A stretch of 41,887 nucleotides of DNA from Patescibacteria group bacterium (GTDB lineage: Bacteria > Patescibacteriota > Doudnabacteria > UBA920). The DNA is taken from NCBI GenBank assembly GCA_013387205.1, contig WARV01000014.1, positions 1-41,887 on the forward strand, in the 5' to 3' direction. The notes under the pieces were generated by a model. The model was not told where the DNA came from. It did no database searches and was given only the letters and a program-made list of their open reading frames with translations. The translations under genes were made by a program, and so were the position numbers. Below, one piece after another: positions 17,495 to 40,610 of this stretch (position 1 is its first letter; each line of letters opens with the position of its first letter).

Positions 17495-17523
17495 AGTATG
17501 CCAATAATCCAAAATTATGTCAA
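17495..17523 (-). promoter_or_regulatory. Near-consensus promoter of the JAMM-type gene
   Basis: On the minus strand TTGACA (17523-17518) is followed after 17 nt by CATACT (17500-17495). The -35 box overlaps the start codon of divergent miaA. The ribosome binding site AAGGAGGG lies a few bases before the ATG at 17467. Confidence 0.75.
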
Positions 17524-18470
17524 CAATAGATAAAATTTTAGTAATTGTCGGTCCGACATCGTCCGGCAAATCGGAACTGGCGGTCAAGCTTGCAAAGCGT
17601 TTTAAAGGCGAAATAATTTCCGCAGACAGCAGGCAGGTTTACAGAGACATGAACTTAGGAACCGGCAAGGTTGAAGGAAAATGGAAATTTTGTAAAAACC
17701 GCGGCCGCGGTTTTTACAAAACGAAAGTATACGTTTACAAAAACACCCCCCACTATTTAATTGATTTTGCCAATCCAAAGAAACAATATTCCGTATCGCA
17801 ATTCCAAAAACAGGCAAAAAAAACGATTGCGGATATTTTTAAGCGCGGCCGCTTGCCAATAATCTGCGGCGGCACCGGACATTTTATCGACGCGGTTGTT
17901 TATAACCAGAACTTGCCGGAAGTTCCGCCCAACCCTACACTCCGCAAAGAATTGGACAAGCAAAGCAACGAACAATTACTTGAATATTTAAAACAGCTCG
18001 ATCCTGACAGAGCCTCTGTTATAGATTGGCACAACAAGCGCCGTTTAATCCGCGCTTTGGAAATTATTATCACTACAGGCAAGCCCGTTCCGCCTGTAGG
18101 GGCGGATACTATCCGCCCTCTACAATATGATGTATTATGGCTCGGCATCAATCTTCCCCAAGACGATCTTTATAAAAAAATCGACAAGCGTTTAAAGCAA
18201 AGGCTAAAGGCCGGAATGATAAAAGAAGTCCAAAAATTGCGCAAGCAGGGGTTATCGTGGAAAAGATTGGATGATTTTGGATTGGAATACAGATACATAT
18301 CGCTTTATCTGCAAAAAAAATTATCTTACGATGAAATGTTTACCCAGCTCTCTTACGCGATTAAGCACTACTCCAAACGCCAGCTGACCTGGTGGAAAAG
18401 GAATAAAGAAATAAATTGGATTAGTAATTATAAACAAGCAGCGGGCACGGTTGCAAAATTTTTTAAATGA
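17517..18470 (+). CDS. miaA: tRNA dimethylallyltransferase, with two palindrome-derived inserts
   Basis: A 317-residue enzyme that transfers the isopentenyl group of DMAPP to A37 of tRNAs reading UNN codons. The P-loop is GPTSSGKSE (12-20). ISADSRQVYRDMNLGTGK and ICGGTGHFIDAV are diagnostic, and the C-terminal KHYSKRQLTWWKR matches the family. Two segments look inserted: residues 58-68 (FCKNRGRGFYK), encoded by a perfect 34-nt palindrome, and residues about 193-201 (PVGADTIRP), encoded by a GTAG-type REP. Both lie in loops between conserved motifs and keep the frame open. No methylthiotransferase gene is nearby. Confidence 0.96.
   Translation: MSTIDKILVIVGPTSSGKSELAVKLAKRFKGEIISADSRQVYRDMNLGTGKVEGKWKFCKNRGRGFYKTKVYVYKNTPHYLIDFANPKKQYSVSQFQKQAKKTIADIFKRGRLPIICGGTGHFIDAVVYNQNLPEVPPNPTLRKELDKQSNEQLLEYLKQLDPDRASVIDWHNKRRLIRALEIIITTGKPVPPVGADTIRPLQYDVLWLGINLPQDDLYKKIDKRLKQRLKAGMIKEVQKLRKQGLSWKRLDDFGLEYRYISLYLQKKLSYDEMFTQLSYAIKHYSKRQLTWWKRNKEINWISNYKQAAGTVAKFFK
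17688..17721. repeat. Perfect 34-nt palindrome inside miaA
   Basis: The left arm TTTTGTAAAAACCGCGG (17688-17704) is followed directly by its exact complement (17705-17721). It encodes residues 58-68 and starts on a codon boundary. Being palindromic, it encodes the same peptide on the opposite strand. Confidence 0.9.
18095..18124 (+). repeat. REP-type palindrome inside miaA
   Basis: TGTAG followed by GGGCGGAT-act-ATCCGCCC and then TCTACA. The 5' GTAG plus hairpin layout is that of REP sequences recognised by RAYT transposases. It is read in frame as Val-Gly-Ala-Asp-Thr-Ile-Arg-Pro. Confidence 0.85.
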
Positions 18471-20064: not shown

Positions 20065-21636
20065 TTACCCTTGCATTTTTTTCCTAAGCAAATCGTTTAT
20101 TACAGAAGGATTACCTTTTCCCTTTAATTCCTTCATTGCCTGACCGACTAAGAAGCCGAAAGATTTTTCCGCCCCGGCTTTAAAATCCGCTACGGCTTTG
20201 GGATTATCGGCAACCACTTTATCAATTACCGAAGATATCGCTCCTTCATCGCTAACCTGGTGCAATCCTAAATCTTCCACAATACTGGACGGCTCGCCGC
20301 CTTTTTCAAACATCACCTTAAACACCTGCTTGGCCGCGCTGCTAGAAATTTTTCCTTGTTGGATTAGTTTCATCAGTTCCGCCAAATTTTCCGCAACCAC
20401 ATTGGACTCCTGCGGATTCATCCCCGACCCATTAAGCAAAGCACTAAAATCCTGCAAGCACCAGTTGGCCGCGCTCTTAATAAGCTGGTTGCGGTCAAGA
20501 CCTTGCTCCTGCGTCATCCATTCGTCAATTTCACTGACCACTTCCTCAAAGTAGCAGGCCATTTCTTTCCAATTGATCAAATTCTCAACATCAATGGCAG
20601 GCAAACCATATTCTTCCAAAAATCTCTTTCTTTTTTGCGATGGCAATTCAGGCAAGCTGCGTTTGAGTTCGCTTAAATATTCCTGTGTAAATTGCAGAAC
20701 CGGCAAATCCGGATCCGGGAAGTAGCGATAGTCATTTGCCTCTTCTTTTGATCTCTGTTCCACTGTCACGCCCTGCTTTTCATTCCAGCCCATTGTCACC
20801 TGCTTGGGTATGCCACCTTCTTTCAAAATTTCCGTCTGACGGGCGATTTCGTAATTAATCGCAGCCTCGGCAAATTTGAAAGAGTTAATGTTCTTTACTT
20901 CAACTTTATATTTGGGCAAAGTGGTTTCGCCAGGCTTGCGCACGGAAATATTTGGCTCAACGCGCATGGTGCCTTTTTCCATATCAGCACTAGACGCTCC
21001 GACATAGCGGACAATATTTCTAAGCTCCTGCAAAAAGACGCGTGCCTCTTCCCCGCTCTCTATCTCCGGTTCAGTTACGATTTCCAAAAGAGCACAACCG
21101 GCGCGGTTATAATCTACCAAACTATAAGGTAATCCGTCAGGATGCACATTCTTTCCCGCGTCTTCTTCTAAATGAGCGCGTGTAATGCCAATACGTTTAA
21201 TGTGTTTTCCTGTCGGGGAAGATCCCATCTTCCCCTCTTCGGACTGGCGGATAAGATCCGCCCCTACATCGCTGATATCACCCAATATCTCAATATCCAA
21301 ATACCCATTTTTCGAAATCGGTTGGTCATACTGCGAAATTTGGTAGCCCTTTGGCAAATCCGGATAAAAATAATGCTTGCGGTCGAACTTGGACCATTCG
21401 TCAATCTGGCAATTCAAAGCCAGGCCAACCAAAGCAGCAAGCCTTATTGCCTCTTTATTCGCAACAGGCAAAGTTCCCGGCTGAGCCGTGACAATCTCAT
21501 CTATGTTAGTATTCGGATTCGTCTCGTCCGGATTAAACGGGGCAGGGCTGAACATCTTAGACTTGGTAGCAAGCTCTACATGTATCTCAAACCCAATCAC
21601 CGGCTTGTATTCATTTGATGGCTCAAAGTTTTTCAT
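20065..21636 (-). CDS. gatB: Asp/Glu-tRNA amidotransferase subunit B
   Basis: A 523-residue kinase/transamidase subunit of GatCAB, which makes Gln-tRNA-Gln and/or Asn-tRNA-Asn from mischarged precursors. Signatures are GFEIHVELATKSKMFS, PGTLPVANKEAI, DRKHYFYPDLPKGYQISQ, RAHLEEDAGKNVH and the C-terminal YqeY-like tail domain (VGQAMKELKGKGNPSVINDLL). Residues about 122-142 (DVGADLIR...GKMGSSPTG) are extra relative to the family. They are encoded by a pair of REP-type palindromes inserted just before the conserved KRIGITRAHLEEDAGK motif. The frame is intact. Confidence 0.97.
   Translation of the reverse strand: MKNFEPSNEYKPVIGFEIHVELATKSKMFSPAPFNPDETNPNTNIDEIVTAQPGTLPVANKEAIRLAALVGLALNCQIDEWSKFDRKHYFYPDLPKGYQISQYDQPISKNGYLDIEILGDISDVGADLIRQSEEGKMGSSPTGKHIKRIGITRAHLEEDAGKNVHPDGLPYSLVDYNRAGCALLEIVTEPEIESGEEARVFLQELRNIVRYVGASSADMEKGTMRVEPNISVRKPGETTLPKYKVEVKNINSFKFAEAAINYEIARQTEILKEGGIPKQVTMGWNEKQGVTVEQRSKEEANDYRYFPDPDLPVLQFTQEYLSELKRSLPELPSQKRKRFLEEYGLPAIDVENLINWKEMACYFEEVVSEIDEWMTQEQGLDRNQLIKSAANWCLQDFSALLNGSGMNPQESNVVAENLAELMKLIQQGKISSSAAKQVFKVMFEKGGEPSSIVEDLGLHQVSDEGAISSVIDKVVADNPKAVADFKAGAEKSFGFLVGQAMKELKGKGNPSVINDLLRKKMQG
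21211..21268. repeat. Inverted pair of REP palindromes inside gatB
   Basis: Plus strand: GTCGGGGAAGAT-ccc-ATCTTCCCC, a 10-nt spacer, then GGCGGAT-aag-ATCCGCC-CCTACA. The second unit is GTAG-GGGCGGAT... on the minus strand. Two convergent REPs with a short spacer resemble a bacterial interspersed mosaic element (BIME). Confidence 0.8.
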
Positions 21637-28842: not shown

Positions 28843-28867
28843 TGTAGGGGAAGATCCCATCTTCCCT
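28843..28867 (+). repeat. REP-type palindrome upstream of the RAYT gene
   Basis: TGTAG then GGGAAGAT-ccc-ATCTTCCC. It lies in the 84-nt gap between htpX and the transposase gene, just before its promoter. It has the same loop and stem as the first half of the pair inside gatB. Confidence 0.85.
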
Positions 28868-28870
28868 CCT

Positions 28871-28900
28871 TTGAACAATATCAAATTAGAAGGATATAAT
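28871..28900 (+). promoter_or_regulatory. Promoter of the RAYT gene
   Basis: TTGAAC (28871-28876), 18 nt, TATAAT (28895-28900). The ATG at 28911 lies only 11 nt beyond the -10 box, so the transcript would be leaderless or nearly so. Confidence 0.65.
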
Positions 28901-28910
28901 CCTCTCGCAA

Positions 28911-29402
28911 ATGCAAACACGAAAACAAAATAGGTTGGTTAATTACGACTATTCCACGCCAGGATACTATTTTGTAACCGCATGTGTTCAGAATCGCACA
29001 TGCTGTTTTGGCAATATAGTCAACAATAAAATTATACTGAACAACCTTGGAAAAATCATAGAACAAGCTTGGGCAGACACACCAAACCATTATCAAAATG
29101 CAACCATTGATCCTGTTTATATTATTATGCCGAATCATTTTCACGGAATTGTAATAATTACACCTCCGCGGGCGGATGAGATCCGCCCCTACACCAGTCT
29201 TAATACTATAATTGGATCTTTTAAACGCAAAGCTTCCAATTTAATCCACCAATCCGGTTTTCCTAATTTTCAATGGCAAAAATCTTTCTTCGACCACGTA
29301 ATCCGTAAAGACGAATCGCTGGAAAAAATCCGGGAATACATACAAAACAATCCTTTAAAATGGGAATTGGACAAGAATAACCCTTCCAACCTATGGATGT
29401 AG
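28911..29402 (+). CDS. REP-associated tyrosine transposase (Y1 HUH, RAYT)
   Basis: A 163-residue Y1_Tnp-family single-strand transposase. The N-terminal strand YYFVTACVQNRTCCFG, the metal-binding His76-x-His78 (MPNHFHGIVII) and the catalytic Tyr143 (EKIREYIQNNPLKW) are all present, so it looks active. RAYTs cut at REP hairpins next to a GTAG/GTGG tetranucleotide and are usually single-copy. REPs with GTAG lie upstream (28843) and overlap its stop codon (29399). A third lies inside the gene, encoding Ala88-Asp-Glu-Ile-Arg-Pro just after the HUH strand. Length is typical. It is the probable driver of the REP family here. Confidence 0.92.
   Translation: MQTRKQNRLVNYDYSTPGYYFVTACVQNRTCCFGNIVNNKIILNNLGKIIEQAWADTPNHYQNATIDPVYIIMPNHFHGIVIITPPRADEIRPYTSLNTIIGSFKRKASNLIHQSGFPNFQWQKSFFDHVIRKDESLEKIREYIQNNPLKWELDKNNPSNLWM
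29170..29193 (-). repeat. REP-type palindrome inside the RAYT gene
   Basis: GGGCGGAT-gag-ATCCGCCC-CTACA on the plus strand, so GTAG is 5' on the minus strand. It is read in frame as Ala-Asp-Glu-Ile-Arg-Pro-Tyr. Confidence 0.85.
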
Positions 29403-29422
29403 CGGCACGCCACGGCGTGCCG
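29399..29422 (+). repeat. REP-like hairpin overlapping the RAYT stop codon
   Basis: GTAG (29399-29402, containing the TAG stop) followed by CGGCACGCC-ac-GGCGTGCCG. It has the same 5' GTAG layout with a different stem sequence. Confidence 0.75.
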
Positions 29423-29511
29423 TTTCGTACAATAACGATCAACTCTGATATTTCTTCAATACATATATAGCATTGAACTTTTGTCTGAGATTGGTAATTG
29501 TAAAAAGTTAA

Positions 29512-29547
29512 ACAAAACTTCACTACTTCGAAGTAGTGAAGTTTTGT
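29512..29547 (-). terminator. Perfect 36-nt palindrome, likely recX terminator
   Basis: ACAAAACTTCACTACTTC (29512-29529) followed directly by its exact complement. On the minus strand it ends in TTTTGT followed by TTAACTTTTT, suiting termination of recX. It may also stop RAYT transcription from the other side. Confidence 0.8.
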
Positions 29548-29566
29548 CCAAAATCAAAGACGCTAT

Positions 29567-33145: not shown

Positions 33146-33169
33146 TGTAGGGGCGGATATTATCCGCCC
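33146..33169 (+). repeat. REP-type palindrome downstream of clpC
   Basis: TGTAG then GGGCGGAT-att-ATCCGCCC, the same stem as the REPs in miaA, gatB and the RAYT gene, followed by TTTTATT. Confidence 0.88.
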
Positions 33170-35880: not shown

Positions 35881-35971
35881 GGCGGAGAGGGAGGGATTCG
35901 AACCCTCGGAACGATTTGACTCGTTCACCGGTTTAGCAAACCAGCGCACTAGGCCACTATGCGACCTCTCC
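35880..35971 (-). tRNA. tRNA-Ser (anticodon GCU)
   Basis: A 92-nt class II tRNA. The acceptor stem GGAGAGG pairs with CCTCTCC, and the 3' end is encoded as GCCA. The anticodon stem-loop CTGGTTTGCTAAACCGG gives anticodon GCT, reading AGC/AGU serine codons. The T-loop is GGTTCGAATCC, and a long variable arm (GAACGAGTC...GTTC) is typical of tRNA-Ser. The T stem and acceptor stem are fully paired. Confidence 0.96.
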
Positions 35972-36073: not shown

Positions 36074-37561
36074 ATGCAAAACCACTACCTTAAAACCAAA
36101 ATTGTCAAAATGGGCAAATGGGCCCTGTTGCCTTTGGATAGTGAAACTTGGAACAGCGAACGTACCAACAGATATTTTAAACAGCATTTTGGTATCCCTA
36201 AAGGTATTCTTTGTATACATACATTAGAAAACGATTTCCATTACCAGTACCCTTGCGCTCCATCCTGGTATTTTAATTTACTCTACACGCAAATTGAAAA
36301 AATTACCAAAACCGACAAAAAGGCTCTAGAAAAAAAATTAAAGGTCTTTTACAAATTAGCCGATAGAGCCAGGAGAGAAGTTTCGAAACAAAAAGTGAAA
36401 AATTACCAAAAGCTTTCCAATCGGTCTTTGGTAAAATTATATAGTAATATCCGCGGCTGGATTCAGCGCCTGGCAATTTTTGACCAATTTGCCTGGTTAG
36501 GGGAAGAATATTGGAATCCTTTAATGGAAAATATCTTGGCTAACAAGTTAGGGCTCGAGAAAAATTCTACAGAATATAATCGCGTATTATTTACGTTAAC
36601 TAAGCCCGAAGAAATTTCAACAACCTTAAAAGAAAAAAGAGATGTTGCCCTGGCGGCTTTGAATATTAAAAATAATAAAATCTCTTTGGGGCAAGCTGCA
36701 AAAATTCTGGCAAAAAAATTTGGCTGGATGCCAGTGTTCACTTATGGCAACCCTTGGCTGTCTCATTATTATATAGACGAGCTAAAAATCGCAATAAAAA
36801 AACCGACTAAAAAACTTCAGCAGGAATACTTAGATTTAAAAAATCACCAACAAATCCGCAACCGAGAATTGTCTGATATTGTTAAACGCTATAAAATCCA
36901 ACTTGATGTTTTACAAGTCTTTATTGATTTTGGTTTGGCTTTAGATACGCGCAATGAAGCGGAATATTTTGTCGGGTTCGGCGGATTTTATCTTTTGCCA
37001 ATATATAAAGAAATGGCCAGGCGGCTCACTATTTCCATTAACCAGCTTAGGAGCTTTACGGAAAAAGAATTAATTTCTGCCGTGCTTGGGCAAAAAAATC
37101 CGGAAACCATCTTGGCTCAAAAAGGCAAATATGTGGCGTGGGGTTATGATGAAAAAATGAAAAAGCGGATAGATTTTTCAACCAAAGAAGCGGAGAGACT
37201 TTATAAATATATAGATAAGAAAGCCAATTACGTGCAAGGGCATGATGAAGAAAAAGGAATCTGCGCCAGCTCTGGAAAAACAAAAGGCAGAATTAGGATT
37301 ATTCCATCTCCCAGCGATAACTATAAAGTCAAAGATGGCGATATTTTGGTGACTTACGCCACAACGACAGATTATTTGCCTGCCATGAAGCGCGCTTCTG
37401 CTATAATCACCGAAGTCGGCGGCCTCACCTGCCACGCCGCTGTGGTTTCCAGGGAATTTAACATTCCTTGCATTGTTGCTCTAAAAAACGCCATGACAAA
37501 CTTTAAAGATGGTGAATCAGTCGAAGTGGATGCGGATAAAGGGATAATCAAAAGAATATAG
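36074..37561 (+). CDS. PEP-utiliser phosphohistidine-domain protein 1
   Basis: A 495-residue protein. The C-terminal about 90 residues are the swivelling phosphohistidine domain of PEP-utilising enzymes (GDILVTYATTTDYLPAMKRASAIITEVGGLTCHAAVVSRE), with the catalytic His at 454. The preceding about 360 residues are helical and aromatic-rich, with blocks seen in PEP-synthase-like central regions (KKFGWMPVFTYGNPW). There is no ATP-grasp domain and no PEP/pyruvate TIM barrel, so the protein cannot on its own charge the His as PEP synthase or PPDK do. It is the first of three tandem paralogues and the most divergent (Cys in TCHAA). Substrate unknown. Confidence 0.85.
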   Translation: MQNHYLKTKIVKMGKWALLPLDSETWNSERTNRYFKQHFGIPKGILCIHTLENDFHYQYPCAPSWYFNLLYTQIEKITKTDKKALEKKLKVFYKLADRARREVSKQKVKNYQKLSNRSLVKLYSNIRGWIQRLAIFDQFAWLGEEYWNPLMENILANKLGLEKNSTEYNRVLFTLTKPEEISTTLKEKRDVALAALNIKNNKISLGQAAKILAKKFGWMPVFTYGNPWLSHYYIDELKIAIKKPTKKLQQEYLDLKNHQQIRNRELSDIVKRYKIQLDVLQVFIDFGLALDTRNEAEYFVGFGGFYLLPIYKEMARRLTISINQLRSFTEKELISAVLGQKNPETILAQKGKYVAWGYDEKMKKRIDFSTKEAERLYKYIDKKANYVQGHDEEKGICASSGKTKGRIRIIPSPSDNYKVKDGDILVTYATTTDYLPAMKRASAIITEVGGLTCHAAVVSREFNIPCIVALKNAMTNFKDGESVEVDADKGIIKRI

Positions 37562-37622
37562 GAAAAAGTTTGCAAATACGGCTTAAATATGGCAATATTA
37601 AAACAAGCAACAAACTTTAAAT

Positions 37623-39122
37623 ATGAAAAAAAGCCGAGTTCTATTTAAAAAATTCCAAAAAAGATTAAGCGGCAAGGAATGGTATCACCAAAGGTTCGAT
37701 GGCAGCCCCATGTTTATTTTTGCCATTGCCGAAGCGGAAACAAAAAAGGAAAAAAGAAAACCCAAAGGCACGGAGGCCGATATCCGTGTTTGTTTTTTTG
37801 GTGATGGCAAAAGCGACTGGTATTTGGAAATGGGCGATGTAAAAAGAGGCGCAAACAAAATTATCAGCCTAGCTAAAAAAAACCCGAATATCTCGAAAAA
37901 ATTATTAAGAGCGTGGAAAAAAGACGAGAAAAAATTTGATGATTATTTCCACAAAATTTTTCCGAAAATAGATCTAGAAAGACTTACTGATGAAGAGCTG
38001 GTCAAAACCTGGCACTATTCATACTACTTGTTCGAAAACCGCACAACATCTTCGGCGATTATTGACCATTTTGCCCTTGGCTCTGACCAGCTAATAAGCG
38101 ACATGCTGCGCAAAGAAATTTTTGGCAAAAAAACATCGGCAGGGTTTAAAGAATCCCAGTTCACGGAAATCTTCAGCATAGCCACAGCGCCTGTCCATCA
38201 ATCTTTTATCAACCAGGCAGAAATTGAATTGCTTAAAATAATTTTAGGCAAATTAAAGGAAACCTTAGCGCAATATCAAAAACGCTGGTATTGGAGCAAA
38301 AACAATTACGTCACTGCCCAAATTTTAGATATCAAGCATTTTCAGGAAGAAATAAAAGCCTGGAAACAAAGCGGTAAGAACCTGGCAGCGGAACTCAAGC
38401 GGATTGAGGGAACTCCTTGTTTGAATAAATTAAAAAAGCAAGCGCTTTTAAGCAAGATAAAACTGTCTCCCCTTCTAAAAACTCTTCTTAAGATTTCCGA
38501 AGATTTTACCTGGTGGCAGGACGAACGCAAGCGCGCGACTTATTTCAATATTGATATCGGCTGCAAGATATTAAGCGAAATAGGCCGACGCACGGGATAC
38601 GAATTGGAAGAATTAAAATACGCTTATCCGGCGGAGGCTAAAGGTATCCTTTTTGGCCAATCTCCTTCCCGAAAAGAATTACAGGAAAGGCAGAAAAGCT
38701 CAGCTTTAATTTCAGTAGAAAGCGCTTTTCAGGTTTTAACCGGTAAAGAGGTACAAAAGCTTAAGGATTTAGTATTGGGTAAAAAATCCTATAACAATAT
38801 TAATGATTTCCGCGGACTCTCCGCTTCAACCGGAAAAGCGATCGGTTCGGTAAAAATTGTCAAATCCGCCACAGAAGTTAGCAAAGTCAACCCCGGTGAT
38901 ATTTTAGTGGCCGTAATGACCAGGCCGGATTACGTAACTGCCATGAAAAAAGCCGCGGCCATTGTCACCAATGAGGGAGGCATAACTTCCCATGCGGCGA
39001 TTGTCAGCCGGGAACTCGGCATCCCCTGCATCATCGGCACCAAAATCGCCACTGAGGTTTTGCGCGACGGTGATCTTGTGGAAGTTAACGCCAACCATGG
39101 TTGGGTAAGAAAATTAAAGTAA
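37623..39122 (+). CDS. PEP-utiliser phosphohistidine-domain protein 2
   Basis: A 499-residue paralogue of its two neighbours. The swivelling domain is canonical ([49 protein letters not shown]), with the catalytic His at 457. The central region has the segment WWQDERKRATYFNIDIGCKILSEIGRRTGYELEELKYAYPAEAKGILFG, resembling the substrate-binding helical domain that precedes the His domain in PEP-synthase-like and rifampin-phosphotransferase-like enzymes. No ATP-grasp motif was found. It starts 61 nt after gene 1 on the same strand. It could work with an ATP-grasp partner encoded elsewhere; that is conjecture. Confidence 0.87.
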   Translation: MKKSRVLFKKFQKRLSGKEWYHQRFDGSPMFIFAIAEAETKKEKRKPKGTEADIRVCFFGDGKSDWYLEMGDVKRGANKIISLAKKNPNISKKLLRAWKKDEKKFDDYFHKIFPKIDLERLTDEELVKTWHYSYYLFENRTTSSAIIDHFALGSDQLISDMLRKEIFGKKTSAGFKESQFTEIFSIATAPVHQSFINQAEIELLKIILGKLKETLAQYQKRWYWSKNNYVTAQILDIKHFQEEIKAWKQSGKNLAAELKRIEGTPCLNKLKKQALLSKIKLSPLLKTLLKISEDFTWWQDERKRATYFNIDIGCKILSEIGRRTGYELEELKYAYPAEAKGILFGQSPSRKELQERQKSSALISVESAFQVLTGKEVQKLKDLVLGKKSYNNINDFRGLSASTGKAIGSVKIVKSATEVSKVNPGDILVAVMTRPDYVTAMKKAAAIVTNEGGITSHAAIVSRELGIPCIIGTKIATEVLRDGDLVEVNANHGWVRKLK

Positions 39123-39132
39123 TCCGGTAAGT

Positions 39133-39152
39133 CATTTCGCAATTGCGAAATG
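39133..39152. repeat. Palindrome between paralogues 2 and 3
   Basis: CATTTCGCAATTGCGAAATG is a perfect 20-nt palindrome, extended by GGTAA (39126) and TTACC (39158). It overlaps the start region of paralogue 3. Its core recurs at 40918-40949. Confidence 0.75.
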
Positions 39153-40610
39153 GTTTACCCAACAAATATGGCAGAATCTAAATACCAAGTTTATATAAGA
39201 AATAATTGGCCGCTGCCTTTTGTGCAGCCTTGGGCTTTTGGTCCGACCAATTTAGCCAAGCCTCCATTTAGATGGAAGGTTATTTTGGTTGCCAATTTGG
39301 GATATAAATATGCTTGGGCTTACGAAGCAAAAGACCTGTTCAAGACCGGACATGAAATAGATTCCTTTCTGATGAACTTAAAAAACTTAAAGCAATTTGA
39401 GCACCAGGCCAAGCAAATTGAGATTGAGAATAGAAAATTTGCGCAGAATATTTCCAAGATAAATTTGGCAAAATTATCGATTAAAGAACTGGTTGACCTA
39501 CTTAAAAAATGGTACAACACTCATAATTGCTTTGCTAAAGTATTTATGTCTATCGATGCCACGGATGAAACATTGGAAAACGATATAAAATCAGAGTTGG
39601 TCAAAAATGGAAATAGCTTAAGCATACACGACTTTGCGGCTTTACTGACACCGGATGCCGCAACTTATGTACAAAGAGAACATAAGGATTTTTGCCTGCT
39701 TGCGAAAAGATATTGGAAAAAATTCCGCTCTCCCGCTGCGCGAAAAGCAATTGCCAATCATAAAGCCAAATGGTGGTGGACAAACATGGGCTGGGGCCAG
39801 CATAAACCCATGAATGAAAAAGAAATTATAAAAAATCTTTTAAACATCAAAGACTTAAACGCGCTTTTAACTTCACAAAAACACGAAGAATATTCCCGCA
39901 ATGAAAATTTAAAATTAAAGAGAACAATTGTAAAAAAACTCCCAATCAAAGCCAAAAGGCTTTTAAACGCATTTGAGGTCTTGGCGGAAATGCACGACAC
40001 CAGAAAAGAAATCCAAATGAGGATGATGAGCGAAGGCCTAAAAATAACAAAACAATTGCTTAATAAGTCTAATTTGCCATTTAAGTTTAGAGACTTTCTC
40101 TTAATGGAAGAATACTTCAATTTGGCAATCGGTAAAAAGCCTGCGCTTTTGGAATTGGAGAGAAGGGAAAAAATTTACTGGTGCGAATTTAAAGCAGGGG
40201 AAAAATTCTTGATGCTATCCGGTAAAAAAGCTTTGGGGAAAATTAAGAAATATGACATAGAAGGGTTAAAAAACAAACAAGATTCAAAAACCTTAACCGG
40301 CCTCCCCGCCAGCCCCGGCATCGCCAAGGGAAAAGCGCGGGTTGAGCTTAACGCGAAAATTTTAAACCGCACCATAAAGCCAGGTGAGATTTTAGTGACA
40401 AGCCAGACTACGCCGGAATTCGCCCCGGCCATGAAAAAAGCCGCAGCTATTATAACCGACGAAGGCGGAATAACGTCTCATGCGGCAATTGTCTCCCGCG
40501 AGCTCGGCATCCCCTGCGTGATTGGCACTAAAGTCGCGACTAAGGTTTTTAAGGATGGTGATATAATAGAAGTAGATGCTAATAAGGGAATTGTAAGAAA
40601 AATTAAGTGA
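39150..40610 (+). CDS. PEP-utiliser phosphohistidine-domain protein 3
   Basis: A 486-residue third paralogue. The swivelling domain ([49 protein letters not shown]) has its catalytic His at 444. It is nearly identical in this domain to paralogue 2, while the N-terminal about 350 residues differ strongly, suggesting divergent substrate or partner recognition after duplication. The aromatic helical block [16 protein letters not shown] corresponds in position to similar blocks in the other two. The ATG at 39150 lies in an intercistronic palindrome; a second Met ([15 protein letters not shown], 39168) is an alternative start. Confidence 0.87.

Follow-up and report, generated by a model that had tools for sequence, protein, structure and literature searches.

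The question raised by this locus is whether a small transposase gene in a Patescibacteria genome and the GTAG hairpins found around it belong together as enzyme and substrate, or whether the hairpins have another origin. The window, that is, the whole stretch of DNA analysed, is a contig of 41,887 nt whose features are collected in Table 1. Our reading, which we hold to be very probable, is that the locus is part of a REPtron, consisting of a single-copy RAYT/TnpAREP of subclass 2.4 (group 4)—a class assigned here by features—and its cognate REP/REPIN family. An earlier note on this DNA had described an intact Y1/HUH transposase, and this description holds, with H76, H78, and Y143 all present and the coordinates given for gene and hairpins correct within one base. 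The HUH motif and the single catalytic Tyr lie within a Y1_Tnp domain (Pfam, 26.9 bits compared to a cut-off of 23), and all 30 homologues in an alignment keep H76, H78, W122, and Y143. The AlphaFold model (pLDDT 92) finds its top solved fold match, among 350,542 chains, in 4er8 (E = 5e-7), the E. coli TnpAREP (RAYT) bound to a REP hairpin, and a chain of 4er8 is also the sole match in PDB by sequence, a weak one (E = 0.11). Counted against our reading is the match to NCBIfam REP_Tyr_transpos (NF047646), which at 60.2 bits (E = 2e-16) stays under the cut-off of 80.

The same catalytic fold is shared by IS200/IS605 elements, and the structural runners-up to the RAYT model are the IS608 and ISDra2 transposases, as would suit an ordinary autonomous element of this type with the hairpins as its own ends. 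Yet the best solved match is a TnpAREP, the gene is present once compared to 31 copies of the hairpin alone, and these hairpins carry a GTAG foot and are paired as REPINs. Multiple gene copies with conserved ends were not found in the genome, which contradicts an IS200/IS605 insertion sequence, and we regard this explanation as very improbable.

Table 1. Features of the window around the RAYT gene and at the REP units (positions in the 41,887-nt window)
Feature	Position	Strand	Remarks
miaA (IPP transferase) with in-frame REP	17517..18470	+	
Double-foot REP unit	18096..18123	+	in frame in miaA (VGADTIRPLQ)
gatB with in-frame REPIN	20065..21636	-	
REPIN, two inverted units (21212-21234, 21245-21267)	21212..21267	-	in frame in gatB (VGADLIRQSEEGKMGSSPT)
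REP unit GTAG+GGGAAGAT-CCC-ATCTTCCC	28844..28866	+	44 nt before RAYT ATG (28911), 18 nt past M48 peptidase stop; covariance model 37 bits
Possible promoter TTGAAC-18-TATAAT	28871..28900	+	consensus match only; between upstream REP and RAYT start
RAYT/TnpAREP (HUH/Y1 transposase), 163 aa	28911..29402	+	H76, H78 (HUH), W122, Y143
REP unit GTAG+GGGCGGAT-CTC-ATCCGCCC	29170..29192	-	in RAYT ORF; covariance model 39.4 bits
GTAG hairpin CGGCACGC-CACG-GCGTGCCG	29399..29422	+	own TAG is the RAYT stop codon; other stem family, single copy
REP unit	33147..33169	+	80 nt past clpC, then TTTTATT (terminator-like)
tRNA gene	35883..35971	-	Rfam RF00005, 54 bits

Hairpins with a GT[AG]G foot that are repeated in the genome adjoin the RAYT gene, and the hairpins fold far better than shuffled sequence (z of -3.5 to -5.7). 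The earlier note had taken both flanking hairpins for REPs; this is borne out for the upstream one, which belongs to the REP family, and not for the hairpin at the 3' end, whose GTAG does hold the stop codon of the RAYT, as the note had said, and whose stem (CGGCACGCC) is of another family. No second copy of this stop-codon hairpin was found in the genome, so the three hairpins of the locus cannot be treated as one family. The same stem type also surrounds the RAYT of a relative (G019:C19), and the stop-codon hairpin may thus represent an earlier REP type that came down with the gene. Among 68 homologous RAYT ORFs, 12 end in a stop codon supplied by GTAG. The two flanking hairpins (28844 and 29399) share the + strand but not the stem family, which we count against our reading; the only inverted pair at the RAYT is the upstream unit and the one inside the ORF. 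Their shared strand and different stems rule out a gammaproteobacterial RAYT sensu Nunvar 2010 (PMC2817692), in which the two flanking REPs are inverted. The REP inside the ORF encodes RADEIRPY, residues 87-94, in a loop between the HUH strand (76-83) and a helix (97-114). Further downstream, between the RAYT gene and a convergent RecX-like ORF, lies a near-perfect long hairpin with a T-rich tail (29508-29551), likely a terminator.

The upstream and in-ORF units belong to a family of GGGCGGAT/GGGAAGAT hairpins of the GGG(CG/AA)GAT type with 31 distinct units in the 1.30-Mb genome (one assembly), to which 55 rows of a covariance model built from the family, on both strands, collapse; the counts cover those copies that are still recognisable by pattern or covariance model. 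The genome-wide excess of hairpins that the earlier note had proposed to look for is thus present. A strict pattern is found at 24 places in the whole genome, one of them (C11:56881) a loose match, compared to 0 in a reversed control. In the window, the five further units that the earlier note had announced are there (18096-18123, 21212-21234, 21245-21267, 29170-29192, and 33147-33169), spread over 15 kb and not 11 kb. The REPs are built as GTAG followed by an 8-bp stem with a 3-nt loop, and GTAG follows a T in 21 of 23 cases. Fourteen of the 31 units pair as seven head-to-head REPINs, TGTAG-[GGGCGGAT hairpin]-spacer-[GGGAAGAT hairpin]-CTACA, in which the GGGCGGAT arm always comes first on the coding strand and the arms lie 3-8 nt apart between collapsed model matches. 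Most REPINs, with spacers of 7 nt, are insertions of 54 nt; their stems are near identical among REPINs, and their spacers differ. Among the solitary intergenic units, six of eight have a TTT or TTTT run directly after the stem or close to it.

One member of the family, the unit after clpC (33147-33169), scores as a terminator, which would be expected if the hairpins were ordinary terminators or chance palindromes. Against this stand the 24 pattern places compared to none in the reversed control, the near absence of the hairpin from 58 of 59 relatives, and the position of 12 of 24 loci in frame in convincing ORFs. Chance and plain terminators are rejected by the reversed control, by codon-shuffled ORFs, and by the relatives' counts, and we consider this explanation extremely improbable. 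A search of the window with Rfam returned only a tRNA. Two other Y1 transposase genes are present in the genome (C17 and C3), and these are not evident movers of the GGGCGGAT/GGGAAGAT family, since their own palindromes are confined to their loci and not amplified. The former (L001, G000:C17:85648-86196) has a CCCAGAGG-N5-CCTCTGGG palindrome beside and inside its ORF, of which no other copies were found in the genome; the latter (L002, G000:C3:16851-18438) has flanking GAGGGTTCCCCTC palindromes at five places within 1.6 kb and resembles the TIR-flanked genes of Di Nocera et al. A local gene family is seen elsewhere in the window, at 36074-40610, where three consecutive ORFs of 486-499 aa have similar C-terminal ends (...GGLTCHAAVVSREFNIPC), like a PEP-utilising enzyme swivel domain.

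We compared the genome of the window (G000) with 59 relatives across the phylum, its class comprising 49 genomes. All 59 relatives are of 0.5-1.5 Mb, and these sizes of the phylum sample are the one basis on which we call the host a CPR-type reduced genome. The relatives carry 15 units in G009, a member of the same taxonomic family, 3 in G018, and 0-2 in the rest. Within the class, a close RAYT is found in G000, G009, G014, G017, and G019, and at least 10 units are found only in G000 and G009, whose RAYT ORFs both contain a GGGCGGAT hairpin. A relative with as many hairpins and no RAYT, the pattern that the earlier note had held against a link between the two, was not found. Both genomes with a GGGCGGAT-bearing RAYT, compared to none of the 47 others, have at least 10 units (Fisher p = 0.0009, for a grouping chosen after the fact). 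The RAYT of G019 and a second RAYT of G009 have other stems around and inside them, and because only the GGGCGGAT-bearing G000 and G009 are repeat rich, the pairing of RAYT and hairpin looks stem specific. Counted against the REPtron are the 3 units of G018, which has no close RAYT. The RAYT of the window groups with those of its own taxonomic family (SH-aLRT 92); its gene shares 61% DNA identity with that of G009, and the hairpin inside the ORF differs in the loop only.

What the earlier note did not contain is that most copies of the family are translated: 19 of the 31 units, including all seven REPINs, are in ORFs and in frame. Counted as 24 loci (units or REPINs), 12 are in frame in convincing ORFs, 1 is in a doubtful ORF (C11:208), and 11 are outside genes. 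Eleven of the 12 coding loci lie in genes recognisable by Pfam, many of them conserved and the RAYT gene itself among them. REPINs are found in uvrA, a UvrD-family helicase-nuclease gene, gatB, a glycosyltransferase gene, the gene of a large Peptidase_S74-domain protein (two REPINs), and one ORF without a family, and single units in transketolase (two), miaA, tgt, and the RAYT gene. One frame is shared by all 12 coding loci, VGAD-x-IRP (RAD-x-IRPY in the RAYT), with the consensus peptide VGADxIRPxxGKxxSSPT. Each coding insertion tested leaves two to four frames open, and the naive chance that 12 insertions (11 here and 1 in G009, the RAYT excluded) fall in one given open frame is 1.6e-6. Despite the differing sequence of the spacers, 17 of 18 residues encoded by them are polar or glycine. 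This frame is not universal to all REP families, an idea we rejected because the GGGAGGGT family of G009 is in other frames. That second family (L203, L210, L211, L212) is largely in ORFs, its other frame reading GGSRPSPT.

The gatB gene offers a clean case, with the same element entering a conserved gene at two sites in two relatives and empty sites in others. The site occupied in the window is empty in most relatives, which can be aligned on both sides of the insertion (empty sites are shown for gatB only), and a separate REPIN is found in gatB of G009 at a different loop, in the same frame, and is thus an independent insertion. In G018 and G009 (L175, L176), the loop occupied by the window's REPIN is longer and of unrelated sequence, perhaps through decayed insertions. 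These insertions bear on a rival explanation, in which the RAYT is domesticated and its REPs are no longer mobile, the hairpins being kept for host functions such as transcription terminators or mRNA 3' ends and the coding copies being old relics. The T runs after most solitary intergenic units, the single copy of the RAYT, and the description of RAYTs as domesticated, slowly acting transposases (PMC8049555) all agree with it. What makes it rather doubtful is that all seven REPINs are coding, where a terminator would do harm, that their stems are near identical while the spacers differ, and that gatB was entered independently at different sites in G000 and G009. A bolder view of the same coding copies takes the REPIN of this lineage as a coding cassette: selection or target choice would fix one frame and orientation, the RAYT would spread a polar peptide of 18 residues to loops of GatB, UvrA, and other conserved proteins, and the transposase gene would hold its own substrate in a fixed loop common to most homologues across phyla. 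We put this forward only tentatively; the inserted peptides are probably tolerated rather than useful.

The REP inside the RAYT gene can be followed through homologues, 70 loci of which were retrieved from public genomes of many phyla, the nearest including Cyanobacteria and Bacteroidetes, as expected for subclass 2.4. A perfect GT[AG]G hairpin is present in 42 of 68 intact ORFs, placed after the HUH motif and before the W of the Tyr region, compared to 0.06 expected from codon shuffling; no perfect in-ORF hairpin was scored in the other 26, and further homologues may have decayed or shifted copies. Twenty loci have both; there, the in-ORF stem is far more like the flanking stems of its own locus than like those of other loci (0 of 5,000 permutations, with kinship ignored), and the own flank is the best or tied match in 17. 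In some Bacteroidota and other homologues (L094, L068, L091, L062), the in-ORF region has grown into repeated peptides (such as VRPYVRPYVRPY, NPCIRPFNPCIRPF, GEDQKQGEDQKQ), as though by repeat expansion, and in L097 and L098, REP-like hairpins lie elsewhere in the RAYT ORF, upstream of the HUH motif. That homologues from different phyla mostly place the hairpin in this one loop, and give it the stem of their local REP family, could mean that the REP in the gene is functional, the enzyme binding its own mRNA or gene there and limiting its own synthesis, which would add to the REPtron and not replace it. We think this unlikely, as the loop is peripheral and tolerant (PMC6006769; AlphaFold model), the 26 homologues above do without a perfect hairpin there, the orientation of the hairpin varies among homologues, and RAYTs are known to act on single-stranded DNA.

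Compared to known systems, the REPtron of the window comes closest in features to TnpAREP subclass 2.4 (Quentin et al. 2018, PMC6006769), which equals RAYT group 4 (Bertels et al. 2017, cited there) and has as its hallmark, described as unique to it, in-frame REPs in the transposase gene between HUH and Tyr. We therefore dropped the idea that the in-ORF REP is a new phenomenon. Shared with this subclass are the in-frame REP itself (here 29170-29192), its place after strand beta3 and before helix alphaC, long canonical REPs whose stem base consists of three G-C pairs (GGG...CCC here), and double-foot REPs such as 18096-18123. The HUH-Tyr distance, reported to be variable in the subclass, is 65 residues compared to a median there of 88 aa, and the host, a CPR-type reduced genome, belongs to a group absent from PMC6006769. 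The GTAG REPs described by Di Nocera et al. 2013 (PMC3733652) in Opitutus terrae and others, intragenic ones among them, have in common with ours the GTAG foot, a 6-9 bp stem with a 2-3 nt loop, head-to-head dimers, TAG stops supplied by REP termini, and insertions in uvrA and UvrD/Rep helicase genes, in line with the leaning of intragenic GTAG REPs to DNA repair genes (including these) seen there. Those REPs are mostly intergenic, whereas here most units and every dimer are in ORFs, in one frame.

Different hosts offer further parallels, and no paper naming RAYTs together with CPR genomes was found within the literature collection searched. The REPtron Sm of Stenotrophomonas maltophilia has a RAYT of group 3, and its copies are abundant and mostly extragenic; for the Rickettsia palindromic elements (RPEs), no dedicated transposase is known, whereas a candidate enzyme is present here. 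The S. maltophilia REP, of 23 nt and cut as single-stranded DNA by its TnpAREP, is identical in architecture to the REPs studied here, with GTAG, an 8-bp perfect stem, and a 3-nt loop (PMC8266576). Like our units, RPEs (cited in PMC3733652) are palindromic repeats in frame in conserved protein genes of a reduced genome, but the intragenic ones treated in that paper are CGTC-type or longer elements. What the present case adds to the known ones is the type of host, the high coding share, the single frame, and the paired gatB insertions.

These parallels suggest how the REPtron might work. By analogy with solved and tested TnpAREPs (PMC8266576), the RAYT most likely recognises its own REPs as single strands, binding the 5'-GTAG foot and the hairpin of 8-bp stem and 3-nt loop, and Tyr143 would cleave near the GTAG foot, after which the REP would be joined elsewhere; it is on this analogy that we infer that the RAYT binds, cleaves, and mobilises REPs. 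Known TnpAREPs cleave at CT or CA (PMC8266576), so the T before GTAG may belong to the cleavage site. The REPINs (GTAG-[GGGCGGAT hairpin]-spacer-[GGGAAGAT hairpin]-CTAC) would be moved as single-stranded DNA, usually to sites after T, and their unequal arms may prevent collapse into one long hairpin. Since most add 54 nt, a REPIN in a gene can be kept, and an intragenic insertion would be retained if it keeps the frame and lies in an exposed loop, the protein then gaining a polar peptide of 18 residues; surviving insertions in a gene-dense genome would then mostly be multiples of three in exposed loops. Single units may be remnants or deletion products; the intergenic ones mostly lie close to the ends of genes, and several of them resemble terminators. 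The RAYT's own REP sits, as in most homologues, in the loop after the HUH strand. The conserved catalytic residues and the near-identical stems are consistent with the earlier note's view of a RAYT/REP system that works or did so recently.

The RAYT/REP partnership, including REPs in the transposase gene, would thereby be extended to a CPR-type genome of ∼1.3 Mb, where extra DNA is expected to be purged. Because the repeats are mostly coding, one can test whether REPs are parasites that the host tolerates or insertions of use to it, and whether a little-studied group of RAYTs is active or not.
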